A stretch of 64,000 nucleotides of DNA. It comes from Pseudomonas viciae. Its GTDB lineage: Bacteria; Pseudomonadota; Gammaproteobacteria; Pseudomonadales; Pseudomonadaceae. Both the position numbers and the translations under genes were made by a program. The DNA lies in contig NZ_CP035088.1 of assembly GCF_004786035.1 (NCBI RefSeq), forward strand, positions 4,724,001 through 4,788,000. Reading direction: 5' to 3'. This document shows, piece by piece, positions 6,332 through 33,192 of this stretch (positions are counted from its first letter, which is position 1; the number at the start of each line of letters is the position of its first letter). Below the pieces are notes generated by a model, which was not told where the DNA came from, ran no database searches, and saw nothing but the letters and a program-made list of their open reading frames with translations.

Positions 6332-8779
6332 ATGCTGTTGTTGTGGATACTGGTTCTGGTCGTCGGGATAGCCTGGCTGGCGCATCGGCGCACCGCCCCG
6401 CTGCCGGCGCTGGGGATCGTCGCGGTCTACCTGTTGGCCATGGGCATTTTGAGCCACGCGCCCGGTTGGCTGATGCTGGTCCTCTGGGTGGTACTCGCCG
6501 CCGTCGCGGCTCCGCTGCTGTTGCCAGACCTGCGCCGCAAGTATTTCAGCGCGCCGATGTTCGACTGGTTCCAGAAAACCCTTCCGCCCATGTCCCAGAC
6601 CGAGCGTGACGCCATCGACGCCGGCACGGTGTGGTGGGACGGTGAACTGTTCAGCGGCCGGCCGGACTGGGACACGCTGCTGGCCTACCCCAAGGTGCAA
6701 CTGAGCGAAGAGGAGCAGGCATTCCTCGACGGTCCCACCGAAGATCTCTGCGCCATGGTCAGCGACTGGCAGATCGGCCAGGCCATGGACCTGCCGCCTG
6801 AGGCCTGGACCCACATCAAGGAACACGGTTTCTTCGCGCTGATCATTCCCAAGGAATACGGCGGCAAAGGCTTTTCCGCCTACGCCCACTCCCAAGTGGC
6901 CATGAAACTGGCGACCCGTAGCGGCGACCTGGCGTCCACCGTGATGGTCCCCAACTCCCTCGGCCCAGCGGAGCTGCTGCTGCACTACGGCACCGACGAA
7001 CAACGCGACCATTACCTGCCACGCCTGGCCCGTGGCGACGATATTCCCTGCTTCGCCCTGACAGGGCCATTGGCCGGCTCCGACGCCGGAGCGATGCCCG
7101 ACACCGGCATCATCTGCAAGGGGCAATGGCAAGGCCAGGAAACCCTCGGCCTGCGCCTGAACTGGGAAAAGCGCTACATCACCCTTGGACCGGTGGCCAC
7201 CCTCCTCGGCCTGGCCTTCAAGGCTTATGATCCTGACCACCTGCTGGGTGACGAAGAAGACCTGGGTATCAGCCTCGCCCTGATTCCCACCGATACTCCA
7301 GGCGTCAATATCGGCCGCCGTCACCTGCCCCTCGGCGCCGCGTTCATGAACGGACCGAACTGGGGCAAGGACGTGTTCATCCCGTTGGACTTCCTCATCG
7401 GCGGCCAGGCAATGCTCGGCAAGGGCTGGATGATGCTGATGAATTGCCTGTCGGTCGGACGCTCGATTTCCCTGCCGGCGGTGGGCACCGGTGCGGCGAA
7501 GTTCACCAGCCTGGTGACCGGCCAGTACGCCCAGGTGCGCGAGCAGTTCAACGTGCCGTTATCGGCATTCGAAGGCATCCAGGAAGCCATGGCGCGCATC
7601 GGCGGCAACGCCTGGATGATGGACGCTGCACGCATGCTGACCGCCAATGCGGTGGACCTGGGGGAAAAACCCTCGGTGCTGTCGGCGATCCTCAAATACC
7701 ACCTGACCGAACGCGGCCGCGAGTGCATCAGCCACGCCATGGACGTACATGGCGGCAAGGGCATTATCATGGGCCCGAACAATTACCTGGGGCGCAGTTG
7801 GCAAGGTGCACCGATCTTCATCACGGTTGAAGGCGCGAACATCCTGTCGCGCAACCTGATGATCTTTGGCCAGGGGGCGATCCGCTGCCATCCGTTCGTG
7901 CTCAAGGAAATGGCCCTGGCCACCCGTGAAGACAAGGACCAGGCACTGATCGAGTTCGACGGTTTGTTGCTCAAGCACATTGGCTTCGCGGTCAGCAACG
8001 CCGCCAGCACCCTGGTGCTGAACCTGGGCCTGGGGCATTTCGAAAGGGCCCCCGGCAATGCCTTGAGCCAGGGTTATTTCCGCGACCTCAACCGGCAAGC
8101 GGCGGCGTTCGCCCTGCTGGCGGACCTGAGCATGATGCTGCTGGGCGGTGAGCTCAAACGCCGCGAACGCTTGTCGGCACGCCTGGGGGATGTACTGAGC
8201 AACCTCTATTTGGCCTCCGCCGCGCTCAAGCGTTACCACGACCTGGACTCGCCCGACCACATGGCACCGTTGTTTACCTGGGCCATGGAAGAAAGCCTGG
8301 GCCAGTCGGAGCGTGCGCTGGACGAACTGCTGAGCAACTTCCCGAACCGGGTGCTGGGTTGCCTGTTGCGCCTGGTGGTGTTCCCTTTCGGCCGCCGCCA
8401 CAAAGGCCCGAGCGACAGGCTGGACGCCGAAGTGGCCGCCGTGATCGGCCGGGCCAAGGGCGATCCCACCCTCGAAGAGTTGCTGCAAGGCTGCTATCGA
8501 CCGCAATCGACCGACGATCCGGTGGGTGCCCTGCAACACGCCGCCGACCTGCTTGCCGCCGCCCAGCCGCTGCATAAAAAACTGCACGTCGCCGTCAAGC
8601 AGGGCCAGCTCAACCCGGCCCCCGGTGAACACCTTATTGACGCAGCCCTGGAAGCCGGTGTGCTGCAGGTGGACGAAGCCCAGACGTTGCGCACGGCCGA
8701 AGCAGCGCGACGCAAGGTCATCGATGTGGATGATTTCGATAAGGAGGAACTGACGCTGGCCGAGACAAAAGTCCGTTGA
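6332..8779 (+). CDS. fadE: Acyl-CoA dehydrogenase FadE
   Basis: An 815-residue enzyme, the same size as E. coli FadE (814), catalysing the first FAD-dependent step of fatty-acid beta-oxidation. Two N-terminal membrane segments (residues 1-18 and 28-65) are followed by the acyl-CoA dehydrogenase N-terminal, middle and C-terminal domains. Family motifs include IPKEYGGKGFSAYAHSQV, FALTGPLAGSDAGAMPDTG and MDVHGGKGIIMGPNNYLGRS, followed by the DUF1974-like tail. The ATG at 6332 has a GGAGGA site seven bases upstream. It is followed by a hairpin and a small conserved gene. In P. aeruginosa the comparable gene is PA2815 (from memory). Confidence 0.95.
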   Translation: MLLLWILVLVVGIAWLAHRRTAPLPALGIVAVYLLAMGILSHAPGWLMLVLWVVLAAVAAPLLLPDLRRKYFSAPMFDWFQKTLPPMSQTERDAIDAGTVWWDGELFSGRPDWDTLLAYPKVQLSEEEQAFLDGPTEDLCAMVSDWQIGQAMDLPPEAWTHIKEHGFFALIIPKEYGGKGFSAYAHSQVAMKLATRSGDLASTVMVPNSLGPAELLLHYGTDEQRDHYLPRLARGDDIPCFALTGPLAGSDAGAMPDTGIICKGQWQGQETLGLRLNWEKRYITLGPVATLLGLAFKAYDPDHLLGDEEDLGISLALIPTDTPGVNIGRRHLPLGAAFMNGPNWGKDVFIPLDFLIGGQAMLGKGWMMLMNCLSVGRSISLPAVGTGAAKFTSLVTGQYAQVREQFNVPLSAFEGIQEAMARIGGNAWMMDAARMLTANAVDLGEKPSVLSAILKYHLTERGRECISHAMDVHGGKGIIMGPNNYLGRSWQGAPIFITVEGANILSRNLMIFGQGAIRCHPFVLKEMALATREDKDQALIEFDGLLLKHIGFAVSNAASTLVLNLGLGHFERAPGNALSQGYFRDLNRQAAAFALLADLSMMLLGGELKRRERLSARLGDVLSNLYLASAALKRYHDLDSPDHMAPLFTWAMEESLGQSERALDELLSNFPNRVLGCLLRLVVFPFGRRHKGPSDRLDAEVAAVIGRAKGDPTLEELLQGCYRPQSTDDPVGALQHAADLLAAAQPLHKKLHVAVKQGQLNPAPGEHLIDAALEAGVLQVDEAQTLRTAEAARRKVIDVDDFDKEELTLAETKVR

Positions 8780-24687: not shown

Positions 24688-24714
24688 GATGCGTCTCCCT
24701 AGGGGTGGTTATCG

Positions 24715-24909
24715 TTAGCAGGCAACGTTGCCATTGGCGGCTTGGCACAACGCCCGGATCTTGGTATCCACGGCGCCGCCCAGAAGGACGAATGCCGCCG
24801 CTACCAATACCGTGATCAAGCCACCCGCCACCGCGTATTCAACGATGGTCAGGCCGTCTTCATCTTTGGCGAACTTGCTGATCGAAGTGCTTATTGTCTG
24901 GAAAGTCAT
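24715..24909 (-). CDS. flp: Flp family type IVb prepilin (copy 1)
   Basis: A 64-residue prepilin. The leader ends at DEDG, and the mature part starts LTIVEYAVAGGLITVLVAAA, carrying the Flp-box Glu-Tyr pair after the cleavage site. GAGG precedes the ATG. It differs from the second copy mainly in the leader, at one Asp/Asn position (DTKIR here, NTKIR there) and one Ala/Val position near the end. Both end in a Cys. Confidence 0.93.
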   Translation of the reverse strand: MTFQTISTSISKFAKDEDGLTIVEYAVAGGLITVLVAAAFVLLGGAVDTKIRALCQAANGNVAC

Positions 24910-25064
24910 TTCATGAACCTCACGCTCGTAAGTAGTAGTAGTGCTACGAAGTTGGAGGGGACAGCGCGAAGTCCATTTGATTTATTCGTTGTACTCACTG
25001 CAAAAGAGTCGCAAGCGTTATTCCTTGAGGGTTACCGTGTCCCCGTCACCGTAAGTCGTCGCTG

Positions 25065-25259
25065 TCAGCAGGCAACGTTGCCGTTGACCGCCTGGCACAG
25101 TGCACGGATCTTGGTATTCACGGCGCCGCCCAGGAGAACAAACGCTGCGGCGACCAATACGGTGATCAACCCACCGGCCACGGCGTATTCCACAATGGTC
25201 AGGCCATCTTCATCTTTGGCGAACTTCAGTACCGAAGCCTTGATTGTTTGAAGAGTCAT
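25065..25259 (-). CDS. flp: Flp family type IVb prepilin (copy 2)
   Basis: A 64-residue prepilin nearly identical to the downstream copy from residue 14 onward, with a divergent leader (MTLQTIKASVLKFAKDEDG). The start at 25259 has GAGG ten bases upstream; three extra codons to 25268 are possible. As the promoter-proximal gene of the operon it is probably the major pilin. A 155-base spacer with an AGT run separates the two copies. Confidence 0.93.
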   Translation of the reverse strand: MTLQTIKASVLKFAKDEDGLTIVEYAVAGGLITVLVAAAFVLLGGAVNTKIRALCQAVNGNVAC

Positions 25260-25542
25260 TTCGCACACCTCATCGGGGTTGTTTTTTCAAGGGCAGTACA
25301 TTGCGAACTGCCTGATGCAACCCTAGTCAGCAGGTGGTGATAGCCGTTAGGAGGATTTTGCACATCGCTAGGATTTTTTTGCGGGGATCCAAGGTTGTGC
25401 CGTGCCATCGACACCCCCAGGGACCACCGTTTGAGGGGCATCGCGCTAAAAGGTGGTGGTTTTATAAAAATTTATTCGGCGAGATAGTGGCACATTGGCA
25501 ATACTGCTAGCTAAAGGGCAGTAAGCACCGCTGAGTAAGCCT
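25260..25542. promoter_or_regulatory. Divergent promoter region, flp / AraC-type regulator
   Basis: 283 bases without a gene, AT-rich near 25365-25385 and 25455-25475. It must carry the promoters of the flp-tad operon and of the regulator. I could not place a convincing sigma-54 or sigma-70 box. Confidence 0.5.
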
Positions 25543-26409: not shown

Positions 26410-26425
26410 AGGTTTTTTCGAGAAA

Positions 26426-26455: not shown

Positions 26456-26461
26456 AAAGGC

Positions 26462-26893
26462 TCAAGGAGCGAGCTTTCTTCTCTCGATAGGGACTGACAG
26501 AACAATGCTGGTACGCGTCTCACCGTACGCATTGATATTGGCAATAATACTCTCGATCTCAGCCATCGACCTGGCATAGATCCTGATCAGATAGGAGTCG
26601 TTACCGGTGATGTGCAGGCACTCAACGACTTCGGGGATGTCGGTGAGCGTCGCTATGAGTTTGGCTTTCGCCGGTTTGAGGGTGGTGATGCCAACGACAG
26701 CGGATATGCCGTACCCCAGTTTGGTTGGATCTAACTGAGCGCTATACCCCTTGATCACCCCGGAGTCTTCCAGTTTGCGCAACCTGTCAGTGGTGGCGGG
26801 AATAGAAAGACCCGCGTGTTTGGAAAGCTCTGTGATAGAAATGCGGCCACAGTCCTGTACCTTCCCCAGGATTTTTACGTCTATACGATCCAT
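26462..26893 (-). CDS. Lrp/AsnC family transcriptional regulator
   Basis: A 143-residue regulator: N-terminal HTH (about 1-50, ISITELSKHAGLSIPATTDR) and a C-terminal RAM/AsnC ligand domain (about 65-135, ending RTSIVLSVPIERRKL). GGGGA precedes the ATG at 26893; a longer frame to 26959 runs through the promoter. It is divergent from the YczE-like gene, with a 12-bp-arm inverted repeat between them. In this family the effector is normally an amino acid, which fits the amino-acid enzymes and LysE exporter next door. Confidence 0.92.
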   Translation of the reverse strand: MDRIDVKILGKVQDCGRISITELSKHAGLSIPATTDRLRKLEDSGVIKGYSAQLDPTKLGYGISAVVGITTLKPAKAKLIATLTDIPEVVECLHITGNDSYLIRIYARSMAEIESIIANINAYGETRTSIVLSVPIERRKLAP

Positions 26894-26920
26894 GTGCGTT
26901 TCCCCCAGAAAAAGTATAAA

Positions 26921-26952
26921 TTTTAATGAAAAGCCCGTGTTTTTCATTAAAA
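26921..26952. promoter_or_regulatory. Candidate Lrp operator, perfect inverted repeat
   Basis: TTTTAATGAAAA and its exact reverse complement TTTTCATTAAAA, separated by eight bases, lie 28 bases upstream of the Lrp start. AT-rich dyads are usual targets of Lrp/AsnC proteins, so autoregulation and control of the divergent operon are inferred. Confidence 0.6.
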
Positions 26953-27093
26953 AAATCATGCCCCAAAATAAAGCAGAGTGCTAGTCTATTTCCTGCCTGA
27001 AAAGCCTAAAAATAATCTGGGCAAGCAATAGCTCTCCTCTTTAGCACGACGCACTGCCTAATAAAATAATTTCTCTCCAGGGATGGTGTTCGC

Positions 27094-27807
27094 ATGGAAG
27101 ATGAAAAAATAAAGTGCAGCAAAAAGTCTGACCTTTTCACCCGTTACATTGGAACGCAAGTCCTAGAACTTCGCAGTTTCAAGAGGGATCAGTTCCTGAT
27201 GTACTTGACGGGCGTCAGTTTCTTTTCAATAGGCGCCACGTGTTTCATCATCAGCCAACTGGGCACCGACCCATTAGATGTCCTGATCATCTCGATAGAT
27301 AAAATACTGACATTCGGAATGGGCATTTGCTCGGCGATCGTGTCGTTATTCTTTCTAACTTGGTGGATGCTTTGGAACAAAAAATACCCGCCAATAAGTC
27401 CATTCATTACAACGACACTGACAGGCCTGCTGATTGATCTCTGGTCCCTGCTCGGGCTTGGAGAGTATTTGATCGTCAGAATGAATGCATACACATTATT
27501 GGCGACGGGCCTGGTGTTGTGCGCCTATTCATCGGCACTCATCATCATGAGCGGTATTGGCATCAGAATCATGGACCTCGTGGTACTGACCATGGTTTCC
27601 AAATGGGGCTGGTCATTCACCAAAGCCAAGATGATCATTGAAATCGGTATTTTCTCGACTGGCTGGCTTTTAGGCGGCCCCTTTGGCGTGGGAACGATTG
27701 CCTTCCTGCTGGTGATCGGCCCGCTTATTCAACCCTTCATGAATATGAATGCCAAGCGCTTTTCACTTAAGAACTACGGACTGATCCGCGCTTCTTCTGC
27801 TTACTAA
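27094..27807 (+). CDS. YczE/YitT-like integral membrane protein
   Basis: A 237-residue protein with a 35-residue charged N-terminus and about five or six membrane segments (near 38-58, 72-95, 105-128, 133-155, 180-215). The pattern GTDPLDVLIISID resembles the YczE/YyaS/YitT family, membrane proteins of unknown transport function that are often found in biosynthetic clusters. The base composition is low in GC (25 of 60 bases at 27301-27360). It is the first gene of the plus-strand set, divergent from the Lrp regulator and about 100 bases before the radical SAM gene. Confidence 0.78.
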   Translation: MEDEKIKCSKKSDLFTRYIGTQVLELRSFKRDQFLMYLTGVSFFSIGATCFIISQLGTDPLDVLIISIDKILTFGMGICSAIVSLFFLTWWMLWNKKYPPISPFITTTLTGLLIDLWSLLGLGEYLIVRMNAYTLLATGLVLCAYSSALIIMSGIGIRIMDLVVLTMVSKWGWSFTKAKMIIEIGIFSTGWLLGGPFGVGTIAFLLVIGPLIQPFMNMNAKRFSLKNYGLIRASSAY

Positions 27808-27906
27808 TAACTACAAGATGACGGCCACCGCTGGCGGCGGCATTGTTTCGCCTCGACTATTTTAACCGATGATGTTGATAGCAACTTCCGTGATGAGGAG
27901 TGAGAG

Positions 27907-29391
27907 ATGGACACTGCAAAAAGTAAAAACTGGACCCTGGACAGCACCCCGGCAAAACTGGAAGAAATACTTCCAGGGGGCGCGGTAAAGTGTCATCTTT
28001 CCCCACGAAATTGTGTCATACAGGAGGGCAAGGTAGGTTTTTGCAAAGTGCGCGGAAACCGTGGAGGTCGACTCGTTACTTTGAATTACGGCAAAGGCGT
28101 TCACAGCACCGAAGAAACCATCGAAACCGAGGCAGTGTTCCACTTTGCTCCTGGTGAGCGAATTCTTTCCCTGGGCAACATCGGTTGCATGCTCAACTGC
28201 GGTTATTGCCACAACTGGAAGACCTCGCAGGCCAAGTATGTCACCGACAAAGACGTCTACTACTACACCCCTGAGCAGGTAGTGGAAACCGCGCTCAAGC
28301 ATGGAATACGCGTTATTTCCTGGACCTACAACGACCCTGTGGTCTGGCATGAATTCATCCTCGACACGGCAAAGCTGGCCAAGGAAGCGGGCCTGATCAA
28401 CCTCTATAAGTCAGCCTTCTTTATCAGTGAAGAAGCCATTGATGAGTTACTGCCAGTCATTGATATTTTCTCGATTTCACTCAAATCCATTTCCCCCGAA
28501 TACTATCGGAAAGTCACAACAGGCTGGGTAGAGCCAGTCCTGGCCGGTATCAAGAAAGTCTACGACGCCGGCAAATATGTTGAAGTCAGCACCTTGATGG
28601 TGACCGACATCAGTGACGATGAAGACACCGCCCGGAAAATCAGCCAATGGGTACTGGATGAACTGGGTCCGAATGTGCCCCTGCACTTCGTACGGTTTCA
28701 CCCCGATTACAAAATGAGCAACAGTATCCGCACCCCCGTGGACCGGCTCCTGAAAGCACGGGACGTTGCCCGGAGCATGGGCGTCGAGCATGTCTACCTG
28801 GGTAACGTAAATGATATCGAGGGCACCAACACCAGTTGCAATAACTGTAACGCCCTGCTCGTCACCCGCTACGGTTTGAACGCTGAAATAATCGGCCTGG
28901 ACAGCAAAGGATGCTGCTCCCAGTGCGGACACGATGCGCATTTCAAATTGCTGGGCGAACCCGAAGCGAACACAACTGTTGAACTGCAGGAGGAGGCACT
29001 GAGCGATTACGAGAAGCGAAAATTCGAGTGGCACGGGGATATCGTATCGCTGCACGCCCAAGTACTGAATACCGAAGACTTCGAACAGACTGTGTACCTG
29101 CGGCGCAATTATACCGACGGGCACAACAGCGATTGGAAATCGCTGACACTGCGAGCGCATGAAAGCTATCGATTCATTATCGCCAAGGCACGCATCGATG
29201 AATCAGGCCCTGAGGTCTGGCTTCCCAAGGGAGTGAACTCTAACCTTCATGAAGTATTCGACAGGGCTCACTTCCCAACCGAGTCGATTGAAGAGATTGG
29301 TATTTCGCAGAATGACATTACCCCGACCATTGGTTATGAGGGCAAGCAGAACATGTATGAGCAGGTCATCAAAATGGTCAGCCAGTCATGA
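27907..29391 (+). CDS. Radical SAM enzyme, AmmeMemoRadiSam/PflA-like, with C-terminal extension
   Basis: A 494-residue protein. The 4Fe-4S/SAM motif CMLNCGYC gives Cys94, Cys98 and Cys101. Before it, Cys29, Cys36 and Cys46 (CHLSPRNC and VGFCKVRGN) match the Cys-rich N-terminus of the AmmeMemoRadiSam-type enzymes related to pyruvate-formate-lyase activase. After the barrel, CNNC (311-314) and CCSQC (336-340) look like a rubredoxin-like zinc knuckle. Residues 351-494 are an extra domain I do not recognise. No Memo/AMMECR1 partner is seen. GAGGAG lies six bases before the ATG. Its stop overlaps the next ATG (ATGA). The reaction is unknown. Confidence 0.85.
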   Translation: MDTAKSKNWTLDSTPAKLEEILPGGAVKCHLSPRNCVIQEGKVGFCKVRGNRGGRLVTLNYGKGVHSTEETIETEAVFHFAPGERILSLGNIGCMLNCGYCHNWKTSQAKYVTDKDVYYYTPEQVVETALKHGIRVISWTYNDPVVWHEFILDTAKLAKEAGLINLYKSAFFISEEAIDELLPVIDIFSISLKSISPEYYRKVTTGWVEPVLAGIKKVYDAGKYVEVSTLMVTDISDDEDTARKISQWVLDELGPNVPLHFVRFHPDYKMSNSIRTPVDRLLKARDVARSMGVEHVYLGNVNDIEGTNTSCNNCNALLVTRYGLNAEIIGLDSKGCCSQCGHDAHFKLLGEPEANTTVELQEEALSDYEKRKFEWHGDIVSLHAQVLNTEDFEQTVYLRRNYTDGHNSDWKSLTLRAHESYRFIIAKARIDESGPEVWLPKGVNSNLHEVFDRAHFPTESIEEIGISQNDITPTIGYEGKQNMYEQVIKMVSQS

Positions 29392-30533
29392 ATGTGTCTA
29401 CTGAAATACTTCATATCAAGGTGGATGATCGAGAGGCCCATCCCTCGGTAACACCTATTTATCAGTGCAGTGCTTTTAGTGCGGATTCGGCGTTCTTCTA
29501 CTCGAGAAAAGCCAACCCCAATGTGACTGAATTGGAACAGGTTGTCGCGGCCCTGGAAGGCAGTGAATACGCCTTGGCCTACAGCACTGGGATGAGCGCC
29601 ATTTACATGGTTTTGGAGCTGTTGAAACCGGGTGGCTCGCTGGTAATCAACAAATTCATCTATGGCTGTTCCTATAAGTTGTTTCAGAGGTATGCGGCAC
29701 GTATCGGTGCGCAACTGACGATCCTGGACCTCACCACAGAAGAAGGTTTGAAAGCGTTGCCGGCGAACGTCGACATGGTCATTTTTGAAACACCGACCAA
29801 TCCGTTCCTGAAAGACATCGATATTCACGCGGTCAGCAAGGCCGTCAAGCAAAATAACCCACAGGCCCTGGTGGTCGTTGACAACACCTGGGCCACCCCG
29901 ATATTCCAGAAGCCACTGAACTTTGGCGCCGACATTTCACTGTACAGTGCAACGAAATACTTCTCCGGGCATAGCGATGTCATGGGCGGTTTGGTACTGG
30001 TCAACAATGAAGTGATTTATAACCGCTTGCTCGAAGGGCGCTTTTATTCAGGCTCGATACTCACCCCCAATAGCGCCTGGCTGCTTCGTCGAAGCATGCA
30101 GACGTTCAACCTGCGAATGGAGAAACACAGCCGTACCACGTCCAGCATGCTCAACTACCTGCGAGAACTGCCTTTTATTGAGAAAGTTTATTATCCGCGG
30201 GTCGATGGCAAACAATTGACCGGCTATGGCGGCATTGTGTTCGTTGATATCCGACCCGACTTGGTTGCCTTCTACAAAACGTTTACCGGTGCGCTCAAGT
30301 GGTTTGGCACGGGCACGGGAATGGCCTGCGTGACTTCGATGGTTGCGCAGCCCTTTAGTGGTAGTCATGCCTCAATGACCGATCAGGAAAAAGCCGACAT
30401 GGGCATTGAAAAAGGCTTGGTTCGATTGTGCTTTGGTTTGGAGGACCTTGAGGATCTTAAAGCCGACCTGCTGCAAGCATTCGAAGCCACGGAGAATAAG
30501 GTCAATCAAAAAAGCTCACTCAATCCTGCCTGA
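29388..30533 (+). CDS. Cys/Met-metabolism PLP-dependent enzyme
   Basis: A 381-residue fold-type I PLP enzyme of the cystathionine gamma-synthase/methionine gamma-lyase family. The PLP lysine is Lys190 (SLYSATKYFSGHSDVMGG); other motifs are ALAYSTGMSAIYMVLELL, FETPTNPFLK and VVDNTWATP. These enzymes do beta/gamma elimination or replacement on sulfur or O-acyl amino acids. Which one this does cannot be read off. It is translationally coupled to the radical SAM gene, which suggests sequential steps on one amino-acid substrate. An intrinsic terminator follows. Confidence 0.9.
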   Translation: MNVSTEILHIKVDDREAHPSVTPIYQCSAFSADSAFFYSRKANPNVTELEQVVAALEGSEYALAYSTGMSAIYMVLELLKPGGSLVINKFIYGCSYKLFQRYAARIGAQLTILDLTTEEGLKALPANVDMVIFETPTNPFLKDIDIHAVSKAVKQNNPQALVVVDNTWATPIFQKPLNFGADISLYSATKYFSGHSDVMGGLVLVNNEVIYNRLLEGRFYSGSILTPNSAWLLRRSMQTFNLRMEKHSRTTSSMLNYLRELPFIEKVYYPRVDGKQLTGYGGIVFVDIRPDLVAFYKTFTGALKWFGTGTGMACVTSMVAQPFSGSHASMTDQEKADMGIEKGLVRLCFGLEDLEDLKADLLQAFEATENKVNQKSSLNPA

Positions 30534-30548
30534 CGGGTGGTAATCATC

Positions 30549-30582
30549 AGCAACGAGCCTTAAAAGGGCTCGTTGCTTTTTT
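30549..30582 (+). terminator. Strong intrinsic terminator before the aminotransferase
   Basis: AGCAACGAGCC and GGCTCGTTGCT are perfect 11-base arms with a seven-base loop, followed by T6. It lies 16 bases after the PLP lyase stop and only four bases before the next GGAG site. Confidence 0.88.
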
Positions 30583-30597
30583 AATGGAGCAGCGAGA

Positions 30598-31854
30598 TTG
30601 TCCAGCGCATTCGAAAACACAATATTCGAAGACCCCATTCTGAACGTTATCCACCTTCTAAACTCCATCGCCCAGGAAAACCCGGAAGCCATTTCCCTGG
30701 CTTCAGGTCGGCCGGATGATGAGCAGTGTGACCCCGTGCTCATCGACAAGGGGTTGACCCGTTACCAACAGCACGTCGCCAGTACTGAGCAGTCACTTGC
30801 AACACTGCTTTGCCAATATGGAAAAACCGCTGGAGTCATCAATGACATCCTCGCCGACTATTTGCAGGTGGATGAAGGGATAAAAGTTCTTAACCCTGAA
30901 AGCATTGTGGTGTGCATGGGCTTTCAAGAAGCTTGCACTTTGACGCTCTTATCCATCTTTGAGGGCGGCGGTATTTTATTGGTGCCGGATCCGGTGTTTT
31001 CCGGGATTACGGGGATTGCAAAACTGCTAAGGATAAAAATCCTACCCGTGCCCATGGCGACCTTTCTCAACCCCACTGCCCTGCGCAAGGTAGCTGAAGA
31101 CCTTGAATCCAGAGGGGAAAAAATCAAAGCACTGTATGCGATTGCGGATTTCAGCAACCCCACCGCCGACAGCCTTTCCTATCACGACAGGCGGGCGATG
31201 CTGCGTTTAGCCAAGGAAATGGATTTTTTCATCCTCGAGGATACTGCCTACAGCTACTTCAGATACGAGGGAGAGAAAATTCCGTCGATGAAGTCGATCG
31301 ACAGCAGCCGAGTGTTCCTGCTGGGTTCATTTTCAAAGTCGATTTTTCCAGGCTTGCGCATGGGCTATGTGGTCGCTCCAGAAGGCGACGGGGTTATGCC
31401 CTTCAGCACCAGGCTGTGCAAGGCCAAAAGCCTGGTCACGGTCAATACCCCGGCCCTGTGCCAGGCTGTTGTCGCAGGGCTACTGATCGAGAACCATTAT
31501 TCGCTGAAAGGGTTGAACCAACCCAGAGTGTTGTCTTACACAAACAAAAGAGACCACATGATTAAATGCCTTGAGCGGCAATTCCCACTCAAGGCTGACG
31601 CCCGAAGAACGATCACCTGGAATCATCCGGCAGGCGGCTTCTTCATCAATGTGCACCTGCCTTTCGTCTTTGGATATTCTGAAATGTGCGAATGCGCCAA
31701 GGACTTCAAAGTCATTGTGTTTCCCACTTCCTTGTTCTCACTGACGAACGACGCGGTTACTCAGGTGAGGTTGTCGTTTAGTAATGCGACAACGCCCGAG
31801 GTCACACAGGCAATAGACCGTTTCAGGGCATACGTTGAGTTTAAAATGCCCTGA
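30598..31854 (+). CDS. PLP-dependent aminotransferase, class I/II
   Basis: A 418-residue fold-type I aminotransferase without the GntR domain of MocR proteins. PLP lysine Lys247 lies in LLGSFSKSIFPGLRMGYV, with SNPTADSLS as the substrate-site Asn and the C-terminal Arg in VRLSFSNA. The N-terminal ISLASGRPDDEQ recalls the HpgT-type aminotransferases of natural-product pathways. The start is TTG at 30598, supported by GGAG eight bases upstream; no in-frame ATG is near. Low GC like its neighbours. Converges with lysE 10 bases away. Confidence 0.87.
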   Translation: MSSAFENTIFEDPILNVIHLLNSIAQENPEAISLASGRPDDEQCDPVLIDKGLTRYQQHVASTEQSLATLLCQYGKTAGVINDILADYLQVDEGIKVLNPESIVVCMGFQEACTLTLLSIFEGGGILLVPDPVFSGITGIAKLLRIKILPVPMATFLNPTALRKVAEDLESRGEKIKALYAIADFSNPTADSLSYHDRRAMLRLAKEMDFFILEDTAYSYFRYEGEKIPSMKSIDSSRVFLLGSFSKSIFPGLRMGYVVAPEGDGVMPFSTRLCKAKSLVTVNTPALCQAVVAGLLIENHYSLKGLNQPRVLSYTNKRDHMIKCLERQFPLKADARRTITWNHPAGGFFINVHLPFVFGYSEMCECAKDFKVIVFPTSLFSLTNDAVTQVRLSFSNATTPEVTQAIDRFRAYVEFKMP

Positions 31855-31864
31855 AACACCCCTC

Positions 31865-32497
31865 TCACGCTGCCGTGGCCAGCATGACGCCAGTGGCTAC
31901 TTGGTAAGCGCCCAGAATCGTGATGGTTGCCCCGGAAAGGTAGTTGATCAATTTGAGCTTTGATTGGGCGATCCTGGCCTTGAAAATGGAGGAGAAGCCG
32001 CTCAATCCCAGCCACCAGGCCGCCGAGCCCAGAAAGATACCTGTCACCATGGGCAGCACTGAGTGCTGACTGCTTTGATCACTGACCATACCGTCACTCA
32101 GCGCGGCGAATATCGCGATAAACGATAAGATCGTCATGGGGTTCGACAGGGTCAAGAACAGCGTGGTCGAGTAGGCTTTGAACATGTTGGCACGCTCACC
32201 CGCCATAGCGGTTGCGCCGCCCTTCGATCGGATCGTTTGATAACCAATGTAAGCGAGGAATACCCCGCCGAAAATGCACAACCATGGTTTAAAGCTAATG
32301 AGCGTTGCGATGATGGCCGTGACCCCCAAGGCCCCAATAAATCCATAGATCGAATCGGCGGTGGCCGCCCCCAACCCTGTCGCGAAACCGGCTCTCCAGC
32401 CGAGCATGAGACTTCTCTGTATACACAACAGCCCAATGGGTCCCACAGGCGCTGCAATGCAAAGCCCGATGACCATTGATTTAACGAAAATCAACAT
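31865..32497 (-). CDS. LysE/RhtB family amino-acid exporter
   Basis: A 210-residue polytopic protein with six hydrophobic segments and the LysE signature PVGPIGLLCIQRSLMLGWRAG at residues 18-38. The family exports amino acids and their derivatives across the inner membrane. It faces the aminotransferase tail to tail. The promoter side (32498-32740) is AT-rich with ATTAATTATTAAT at 32553-32565, which may bind the Lrp regulator. In context it is the likely export pump for the cluster's product. Confidence 0.88.
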   Translation of the reverse strand: MLIFVKSMVIGLCIAAPVGPIGLLCIQRSLMLGWRAGFATGLGAATADSIYGFIGALGVTAIIATLISFKPWLCIFGGVFLAYIGYQTIRSKGGATAMAGERANMFKAYSTTLFLTLSNPMTILSFIAIFAALSDGMVSDQSSQHSVLPMVTGIFLGSAAWWLGLSGFSSIFKARIAQSKLKLINYLSGATITILGAYQVATGVMLATAA

Positions 32498-32740
32498 AAA
32501 TGCACCTCCTGAATGGGTACTGGAAGGTTAGGAGAAGTGCATTTTTTTAGAAATTAATTATTAATCTTCGTCACGCCATATCCCTCAGTTTTGCATGAAG
32601 TGCTCTCATTCCCCCTTCATTATTAAGGTGAAGCAACACCCCGACCCTCAGACAGAACAATCCACGAAAATTGTTCGTTAGAGGTTCACGGAGACTGACT
32701 CTCTACACCCTGAGGATTGAACTGAGTTTTTCACGCGCAT

Positions 32741-32778: not shown

Positions 32779-32854
<76 letters not shown>

Positions 32855-32857
32855 AAA

Positions 32858-32933
32858 TGGCGTCCCCTAGGGGACTCGAACCCCTGTTACCGCCGTGAAA
32901 GGGCGGTGTCCTAGGCCACTAGACGAAGGGGAC
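32858..32933 (-). tRNA. tRNA-Glu (TTC), copy 2
   Basis: A 76-base tRNA on the minus strand: GTCCCCTTCGTCTAG start, anticodon TTC in CCCTTTCACGG, GTTCGAGTC and encoded CCA. Three bases separate it from tRNA-Gly. Identical to the copy at 33117-33192. Confidence 0.96.
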
Positions 32934-33038
32934 ACGCTGCCCGGAACACATGGTGTGTGTTCCAGTGCCCAGACCCGCATCCTAAGATGCCGGCTCTGGT
33001 TTCACTCAGCCCTGCCCGAAAGCAACGCTGTTTAAAAA

Positions 33039-33114
<76 letters not shown>

Positions 33115-33116
33115 AT

Positions 33117-33192
33117 TGGCGTCCCCTAGGGGACTCGAACCCCTGTTACCGCCGTGAAAGGGCGGTGTCCTAGGCCACTAGACGAAGGGGAC
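33117..33192 (-). tRNA. tRNA-Glu (TTC), copy 1
   Basis: Promoter-proximal gene of the four-tRNA minus-strand cluster, identical to the other tRNA-Glu. The 359 bases upstream (33193-33551) hold no gene that I can support; they must carry the tRNA promoter and that of the next plus-strand gene. Confidence 0.96.

Follow-up and report, generated by a model that had tools for sequence, protein, structure and literature searches.

The window discussed here is a stretch of 64,000 nucleotides from Pseudomonas viciae (contig NZ_CP035088.1, positions 4,724,001 to 4,788,000), whose genome of 6.7 Mb is 100% complete. At 26462-32497, it holds a cassette of six genes encoding an Lrp/AsnC-type regulator (Lrp), a YczE-like membrane protein, a radical S-adenosylmethionine (SAM) enzyme (rSAM), a Cys/Met-metabolism-type enzyme dependent on pyridoxal 5'-phosphate (the PLP enzyme), an aminotransferase (AT), and a LysE-type exporter (Table 1). 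A first-pass annotation, made from the letters and their open reading frames (ORFs), had delimited these genes and named their families; all ORFs and families were confirmed, as was the coupling it described between the rSAM and PLP genes, i.e., an ATGA at 29388-29391 in which the rSAM stop overlaps the PLP gene start. The Lrp protein matches the AsnC_trans_reg and HTH_24 domains, and its true start may well be 26893 instead of 26959, judging from a GGGGGAA just 5' of the ATG at 26893 and from several relatives that align from about residue 20 (others align further up). The YczE-like protein scores 79.5 bits against NF052291, below the equivalog cut-off of 205, and LysE scores 96.7 bits against PF01810. 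Many AT relatives are labelled in their source records as (S)-3,5-dihydroxyphenylglycine transaminase, which is at best a weak lead. Between 25200 and 34500, an Rfam search at gathering scores found four tRNAs and no riboswitch or other RNA.

Table 1. Features of the cassette and its surroundings, in window coordinates
Feature	Position	Strand	Remarks
Lrp/AsnC-type regulator	26462..26893	-	ORF extends to 26959; possible start 26893, ~143 aa
Putative Lrp operator, inverted repeat TTAATGAAAA-N8-TTTTCATTAA	26923..26950	.	Lrp/YczE promoter region
YczE-like membrane protein, 237 aa	27094..27807	+	NF052291 match below cut-off
rSAM enzyme, 494 aa	27907..29391	+	PF04055, TIGR04337
Cys/Met-metabolism-type PLP enzyme, 381 aa	29388..30533	+	PF01053, PLP lysine K190
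Fold-I aminotransferase (AT), 418 aa	30598..31854	+	PF00155; TTG start uncertain
LysE-type exporter, 210 aa	31865..32497	-	PF01810
Palindromic element ATTAATAATTAATT	32552..32565	.	Ends 54 bp upstream of LysE start
CCTTAATAATGAAGG element	32614..32628	-	Ends 116 bp upstream of LysE start
tRNA cluster Gly-Glu-Gly-Glu	32779-33192	-	Beside cassette

A six-gene unit at unrelated chromosomal sites

A scan with an rSAM alignment retrieved 80 loci, 14 from Pseudomonas and 66 from other organisms (loci and genomes carry our own L and G handles); the closest named rSAM loci, at 91-96% identity, are all from Pseudomonas. The order of the six genes is constant in all 14 other Pseudomonas loci of this collection, and pairwise distances of the six genes correlate at 0.94-0.98 across 15 loci. 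Nine of the 14 share the window flanks, two of these ending at a contig edge on the right. In L027, L028, L029, L030, L040, and L132, DNA similarity to the window runs from 26457-26472 to 32497-32634, and the flank pairs of these six loci (~5 kb per side) resemble neither each other nor the window flanks; a further match of L040, 131 bases long, falls in a remote part of the window. In three of the moved copies (L027, L040, and L132), the CCTTAATAATGAAGG element lies near the right edge of similarity. A cassette-free relative, L125, reveals the empty site, joining window positions 26419 and 32712. The gene set thus recurs with unchanged borders at sites that are unrelated, and an empty site exists as well, as expected of a moved cassette; the six genes are one horizontally transferable unit.

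Two proposals of the first-pass annotation, a coherent gene set and its acquisition by transfer, are strongly supported by the constant order and joint borders, and by the unrelated flanks, sharp similarity edges, and empty site, respectively. The tRNA cluster on which it had also leaned is real and adjoins the cassette, but it is no general insertion target: the cassette occupies at least seven chromosomal sites, and the cluster marks just one of them. The tRNA cluster is itself a tandem duplication of a Gly-Glu pair, and the same four-gene layout occurs in 7 of 14 other loci scanned. In L123 (9652-11920), the same site lacks the cassette. Instead, ~2.3 kb of different DNA lie there, including two ORFs of ~250-270 aa that resemble each other; this tRNA-flanked site may therefore be an insertion hot spot.

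A survey of 298 genomes of the genus found rSAM at full length in 14, with 94-100% identity; another two contain just a relative of the short core (34-35%), and a further two just fragments. None of the six genes encodes a recombinase, and neither a recombinase nor a target-site duplication was noticed at the cassette edges in the junctions viewed, although no systematic test was made. Plasmid carriage was rejected, as the plasmid matches are partial and of low identity: five records were found at E <= 1e-40, none covering more than 80% of the query, with 33-36% identity over 59-67%. In L034 (977-5083, Candidatus Paraburkholderia schumanniana), the YczE and AT genes are in pieces, reflecting decay or sequencing error.

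The base composition also sets the cassette apart. Its GC content is 0.507, compared with 0.611 in the flanks, and is lower than that of the flanks in 15 of 15 Pseudomonas loci, window included. The hand counts of the first-pass annotation (25 of 60 bases at 27301-27360 and 41 of 60 at 7021-7080, in fadE) are exact. The background consisted of 302 ORFs, drawn from 20 regions of 20 kb sampled in the host genome. By GC content, the six genes rank in the lowest 2-9% of these ORFs; by GC at third codon positions (GC3), they rank at 11-37%, a milder deviation, and by codon use, Lrp, YczE, AT, and LysE rank low, at 4-8%. Since a crude ORF caller supplied this background, composition by itself is a moderate signal. 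Elsewhere in the window, two alike stretches of ~200 bp (24714-24912 and 25064-25261) lie by a prepilin-peptidase-like gene and are possibly duplicated pilin genes.

The rSAM-PLP pair and its two enzymes

The rSAM-PLP pair is recurrent across phyla. Outside Pseudomonas, the PLP gene is immediately downstream of rSAM in 22 of the 66 loci, spread over nine phyla (i.e., Pseudomonadota, Myxococcota, Cyanobacteriota (Hormoscilla), Nitrospinota, Planctomycetota, Bdellovibrionota, Nitrospirota, Verrucomicrobiota, and Bacteroidota). The count comprises 20 strictly adjacent loci, L094, and L039; it leaves out L035 and L046, where the PLP gene is farther from rSAM, and in three of the 66 loci (L070, L075, and L097), the contig ends no more than ~200 bases after rSAM. 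In L039 (11598-12708, Hormoscilla), the PLP gene is in two frames, through decay or sequencing error. Searching in the other direction, with the PLP alignment alone, gave matches in 4 of 398 genomes of the phylum, and rSAM is adjacent in all four, of which only G383 is new; the window genome, G083 (where the PLP gene, as locus L164, adjoins the rSAM of L014), and G337 (whose contig is as long as that of L064) had already been found via rSAM. Along the same lines, 19 of 120 listed rSAM relatives have a longest contig equal in length to that of a listed PLP relative, and three of these lengths are seen again among AT relatives; the lengths were matched by eye, and their equality is suggestive of a shared contig rather than proof. 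The first-pass annotation had asked for this co-occurrence to be checked and had named both it and base composition beforehand as grounds on which its reading could fall; neither overturned it, and the co-occurrence in distant genomes is strongly supported. A single origin of the rSAM-PLP context was rejected, since the rSAM tree, with contig-end loci left open and L039 not included, requires no fewer than five changes of this context. No description of the pair was found among the titles and abstract openings listed in searches of the open-licence literature, those of the papers that mention 'AmmeMemoRadiSam' included.

The neighbors of the pair vary between lineages. An enzyme of 2-oxo-acid type is near it in some, i.e., a class I aminotransferase in Pseudomonas and Halomonas, a class IV aminotransferase in Corallococcus, and 2-oxoacid-ferredoxin-oxidoreductase-like genes in L078, L096, L098, and L099, which fits a PLP step yielding a 2-oxo acid. 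A condensation-adenylation protein of the nonribosomal peptide synthetase (NRPS) type is found at the pair in Nitrospinota, Magnetococcales, one Acidobacteriota locus, and G383; L035 is among the loci where it occurs together with the PLP enzyme. In L058-L061, L063, L064, and L167, such a protein adjoins the pair, in most cases with a carrier protein and a 573-aa protein that has no Pfam match.

The rSAM enzyme has invariant cysteines at positions 29, 36, and 46, a CX3CX2C motif at 94/98/101, CXXC pairs at 311/314 and 337/340, and a C-terminal beta-strand domain at ~369-450. It belongs to TIGR04337 (AmmeMemoRadiSam), scoring 291.7 bits against a cut-off of 220. The neighbor clusters of the rSAM family, scanned via one representative each, contain partners other than the PLP enzyme, for instance SPASM and HemN/HutW-like rSAM proteins (Actinomycetota, Bradyrhizobium, Acidobacteriota, Chloroflexota, and Telmatospirillum); an HgcAB-like protein in Bradyrhizobium, with cluster relatives in L071, L073, and L095; LuxC-, LuxE-, LCAT-, and penicillin-acylase-like genes in Proteus, Providencia, Budvicia, and others; and a class V aminotransferase with a zinc dehydrogenase in Streptomyces and others. 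In Streptomyces and Telmatospirillum, members of this rSAM family have YczE-like genes at a distance of up to ~10 kb, and some Streptomyces copies have both YczE and LysE nearby.

Two of these settings deserve separate mention. In L043 (1-11449), L073 (9776-21190), L095 (7144-18966), and L047 (9992-15807), the long-form rSAM clusters with a SPASM rSAM and a HemN/HutW-like rSAM and, in some, with an HgcAB-like corrinoid/ferredoxin protein, a methyltransferase, a ThiF-hydrolase fusion, and YczE. This recurrent cluster looks like a pathway of its own, of which a single search of the open-licence literature found no description. Similarly, L079, L081-L087, and L091 (Proteus, Providencia, Budvicia, Leminorella, and Limnobaculum) place the long-form rSAM in a conserved set of LuxE-, LuxC-, epimerase-, penicillin-acylase-, and LCAT-like genes, a set present in part in L088, L089, and L094, where the epimerase-like gene was not seen.

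The PLP enzyme is a member of PF01053 (318.8 bits), its predicted fold is that of cystathionine gamma-lyase, and its PLP lysine, K190, is kept in 50 of 50 aligned sequences. Among solved structures, it is closest to methionine gamma-lyases and to cystathionine gamma-lyases or synthases (~29-36% identity). In a comparison with NCBIfam equivalogs, 45 families matched, and none of the 25 listed reaches its cut-off (best score, 270.6 versus 594). We assembled 156 members of its subfamily (i.e., 35 from rSAM loci, the best 120 of 664 database hits, and the window) and, as controls, 32 ordinary relatives taken as open frames, from 30 loci of a search of 18 genomes and two of another search. Scored with a profile built on 29 of the members, 155 members reach 482 bits or more, and no control exceeds 262; the other 544 of the 664 hits could fill this gap. 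The 35 members taken from rSAM loci, for which position and a lenient similarity threshold were the criteria, all score at least 491 bits. Nine residues (N45, C94, W168, F219, S236, F285, T310, M312, and A313) occur in at least 155 of the 156 members and in no more than 15% of the controls. F219 aligns with an acidic residue of methionine gamma-lyase, which we take to help set methionine specificity, and its replacement is read as a sign of a changed, aromatic substrate pocket.

Lrp, LysE, and the loci that retain them

A close LysE (E <= 1e-60) is found in 19 of the 298 genus genomes, 14 with the cassette and five without a full rSAM. In the latter (G124, G205, G237, G101, and G007), Lrp and LysE stand together at the locus, without the four genes that lie between them in a full cassette; rSAM was found without LysE in none of 14 genomes. 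Three of these remnants, L129 (G124), L130 (G205), and L126 (G237), retain small pieces of rSAM and/or AT, L128 (G007) has flanks in common with the full cassette of L029, and L127 (G101) has neither such pieces nor the flanks of a full cassette. Both Lrp and LysE are free of internal stops in all five remnants, and Lrp has none in any of the 22 loci examined, window included. The ratio omega for remnant Lrp and LysE versus the window is 0.036-0.094, with synonymous divergence (dS) of 0.48-0.92 and, in one case, 3.2; no value could be computed for L127 or for the Lrp gene of L128.

Two promoter elements fare differently in the remnants. The inverted repeat at 26923-26950 is perfect in the window, where a mean of 0.00 is expected by chance. 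Among the 17 full cassettes (the window, 14 collection loci, L131, and L132, with one species possibly counted twice), all have the repeat with two mismatches or fewer, as does one of five remnants, and the other four remnants have six or more mismatches. The CCTTAATAATGAAGG element is present 114-117 bp before LysE, with two mismatches or fewer, in 16 of 17 full cassettes and four of five remnants. Because CCTTAATAATGAAGG is kept and the repeat is mostly lost in the remnants, we read Lrp as controlling LysE, and the repeat as mainly serving the lost biosynthetic operon. Remnants of this Lrp-LysE kind would be expected if the product is exported and toxic to its maker, with sensor and exporter acting as an immunity module. 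Thus, the sensing by Lrp and export by LysE that the first-pass annotation had proposed receive indirect support from the conserved promoter elements and the Lrp/LysE-only loci.

Proposed function, rivals, and known systems

We lean toward a reading in which the moved cassette makes, senses, and exports a small amino-acid-like metabolite, with its chemistry, product, toxicity, and Lrp binding inferred from genes and their contexts. In this scheme, whose enzyme order is likewise a proposal, the rSAM enzyme would cleave SAM to a 5'-deoxyadenosyl radical and abstract hydrogen from a substrate derived from an amino acid. Next would come the translationally coupled PLP enzyme of the gamma family, in which invariant aromatic residues appear to stand in for the usual ones on the substrate side; by gamma-elimination or replacement, it would give a 2-oxo acid or a modified amino acid, and the aminotransferase would interconvert 2-oxo acid and amino acid. 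The product would be sensed by Lrp, which would turn on LysE via the upstream elements, and LysE would expel it; YczE would be a membrane partner, with no role assigned in the proposal. As Lrp and LysE are kept where biosynthesis is lost, the product is probably harmful to the cell, enough for sensor and exporter to outlast its synthesis. A bolder extension, which we advance tentatively, is that the long-form rSAM and the aromatic-pocket gamma-PLP enzyme form an undescribed module for a new radical-plus-PLP amino-acid chemistry in nine phyla, which in Pseudomonas would make a toxic exported amino acid, with Lrp-LysE immunity persisting after its loss, while the rSAM family would serve other undescribed pathways.

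Several observations weigh against this picture. The rSAM family is not tied to this PLP enzyme, because at least five changes of context are needed on its tree and 18 genomes, chosen from 42 loci without a member of the PLP subfamily, have other rSAM partners; 17 of these have matches to the PLP profile, none above 262 bits. YczE, LysE, and Lrp are missing beside many rSAM-PLP pairs elsewhere, and a 2-oxo-acid enzyme was not seen among the scanned neighbors of several pairs (e.g., Nitrospinota and Planctomycetota). As for immunity, five remnants versus none of the opposite kind is a small sample, remnant L128 lacks the LysE element, the low omega may date from before the deletion, and the Lrp-LysE pair of G101, with no pieces and flanks of its own, could be ancestral. 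As for transfer, no long-form rSAM was found in 72,556 plasmid records, and codon use is ordinary for the core enzymes (rSAM at 42% and the PLP gene at 29% of the background).

The main rival, which we regard as unlikely, is that the cassette detoxifies or catabolizes, i.e., that its enzymes degrade an incoming toxic amino acid sensed by Lrp, with LysE as a second defence and enzyme loss leaving efflux. PLP gamma-lyases are often degradative, Lrp and LysE can occur alone, and a low-GC transferable unit would suit such a role; however, the NRPS-type proteins at the pair in other lineages, mostly with a carrier protein, indicate a biosynthetic setting, albeit at non-Pseudomonas loci. Less probable still is the salvage of sulfur amino acids, where a methionine gamma-lyase-like PLP enzyme feeds 2-oxobutyrate to AT and rSAM processes a SAM-derived by-product. 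The identity of the nearest solved relatives, methionine and cystathionine gamma-enzymes at ~29-36%, and the retained PLP lysine and YGC motif speak for it, but the scores below all 25 listed NCBIfam cut-offs (of 45 matched) and signature positions that differ from the 32 controls do not, and salvage leaves the Lrp-LysE export module and the NRPS contexts unexplained.

We consider it very improbable that rSAM belongs to a complete AmmeMemoRadiSam system or activates a glycyl radical enzyme, its neighbors being incidental. Memo and AMMECR1 had no matches in the host genome, in searches that were each positive in 5 of 14 control genomes, nor had the glycyl radical enzyme family PF01228, whose search was positive in 3 of 14; moreover, the protein has ~150 extra C-terminal residues, and it is the PLP partner that recurs instead. 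Low GC and a tRNA neighborhood would also be expected if chance had brought unrelated genes together in a genomic island, a notion with next to no probability left, since it is refuted for the six-gene unit by seven unrelated sites at which all six genes recur within the same borders. If the biosynthetic reading is correct, a compact and portable cassette, with three enzymes besides its membrane protein, sensor, and exporter, would give Pseudomonas a bioactive amino acid, and its two-enzyme core would represent new chemistry across many phyla. The cassette is small enough for expression in a laboratory strain, with the naturally deleted relatives as controls for the immunity idea; P. kilonensis DSM 13647 (L021) is one laboratory Pseudomonas in which it is present.

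Parts of the cassette resemble known systems. The rSAM enzyme shares its core, residues 22-344, with AmmeMemoRadiSam proteins (TIGR04337), from which it differs in its length of 494 aa and its recurrent PLP partner. Fold and PLP lysine are shared with methionine gamma-lyase, cystathionine gamma-lyase, and gamma-synthase, and the YGC motif is that of methionine gamma-lyase, whereas the nine signature residues are rare among such relatives. Among gene clusters, amb of P. aeruginosa comes close: its product, the antimetabolite AMB, is a toxic amino acid of the non-proteinogenic kind, and it has a putative LysE-type exporter, AmbA, which is expected by the authors of the study to carry AMB out of the cell, a role that they speculate is crucial to resistance (PMC4357302). 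Unlike the cassette, the five amb genes include no rSAM, PLP enzyme, or aminotransferase, and the two NRPSs and two putative Fe(II)/2-oxoglutarate oxygenases that they encode are absent from the six genes (PMC4357302). The gvg cluster for the antimetabolite 4-formylaminooxyvinylglycine, found in Pseudomonas with gvg-like clusters in Burkholderia, likewise has LysE transporters, as well as visible gene decay, and its formyltransferase and amidinotransferase have no counterpart among the six genes (PMC8064604). Of the hallmarks of the amb and gvg types, then, the six genes include the LysE-type exporter and lack an NRPS, an Fe/2-oxoglutarate oxygenase, and a formyltransferase. We know of no rSAM-PLP pair in gvg. 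Finally, the divergent regulator of the cassette is Lrp rather than MocR and its YczE-like protein falls below the equivalog cut-off, which separates it from the YczE/YczR pairs; yet these pairs also set a YczE-like membrane protein, of unknown function and possibly involved in amino-acid transport, next to PLP-related genes, just as the cassette does (PMC4944035).

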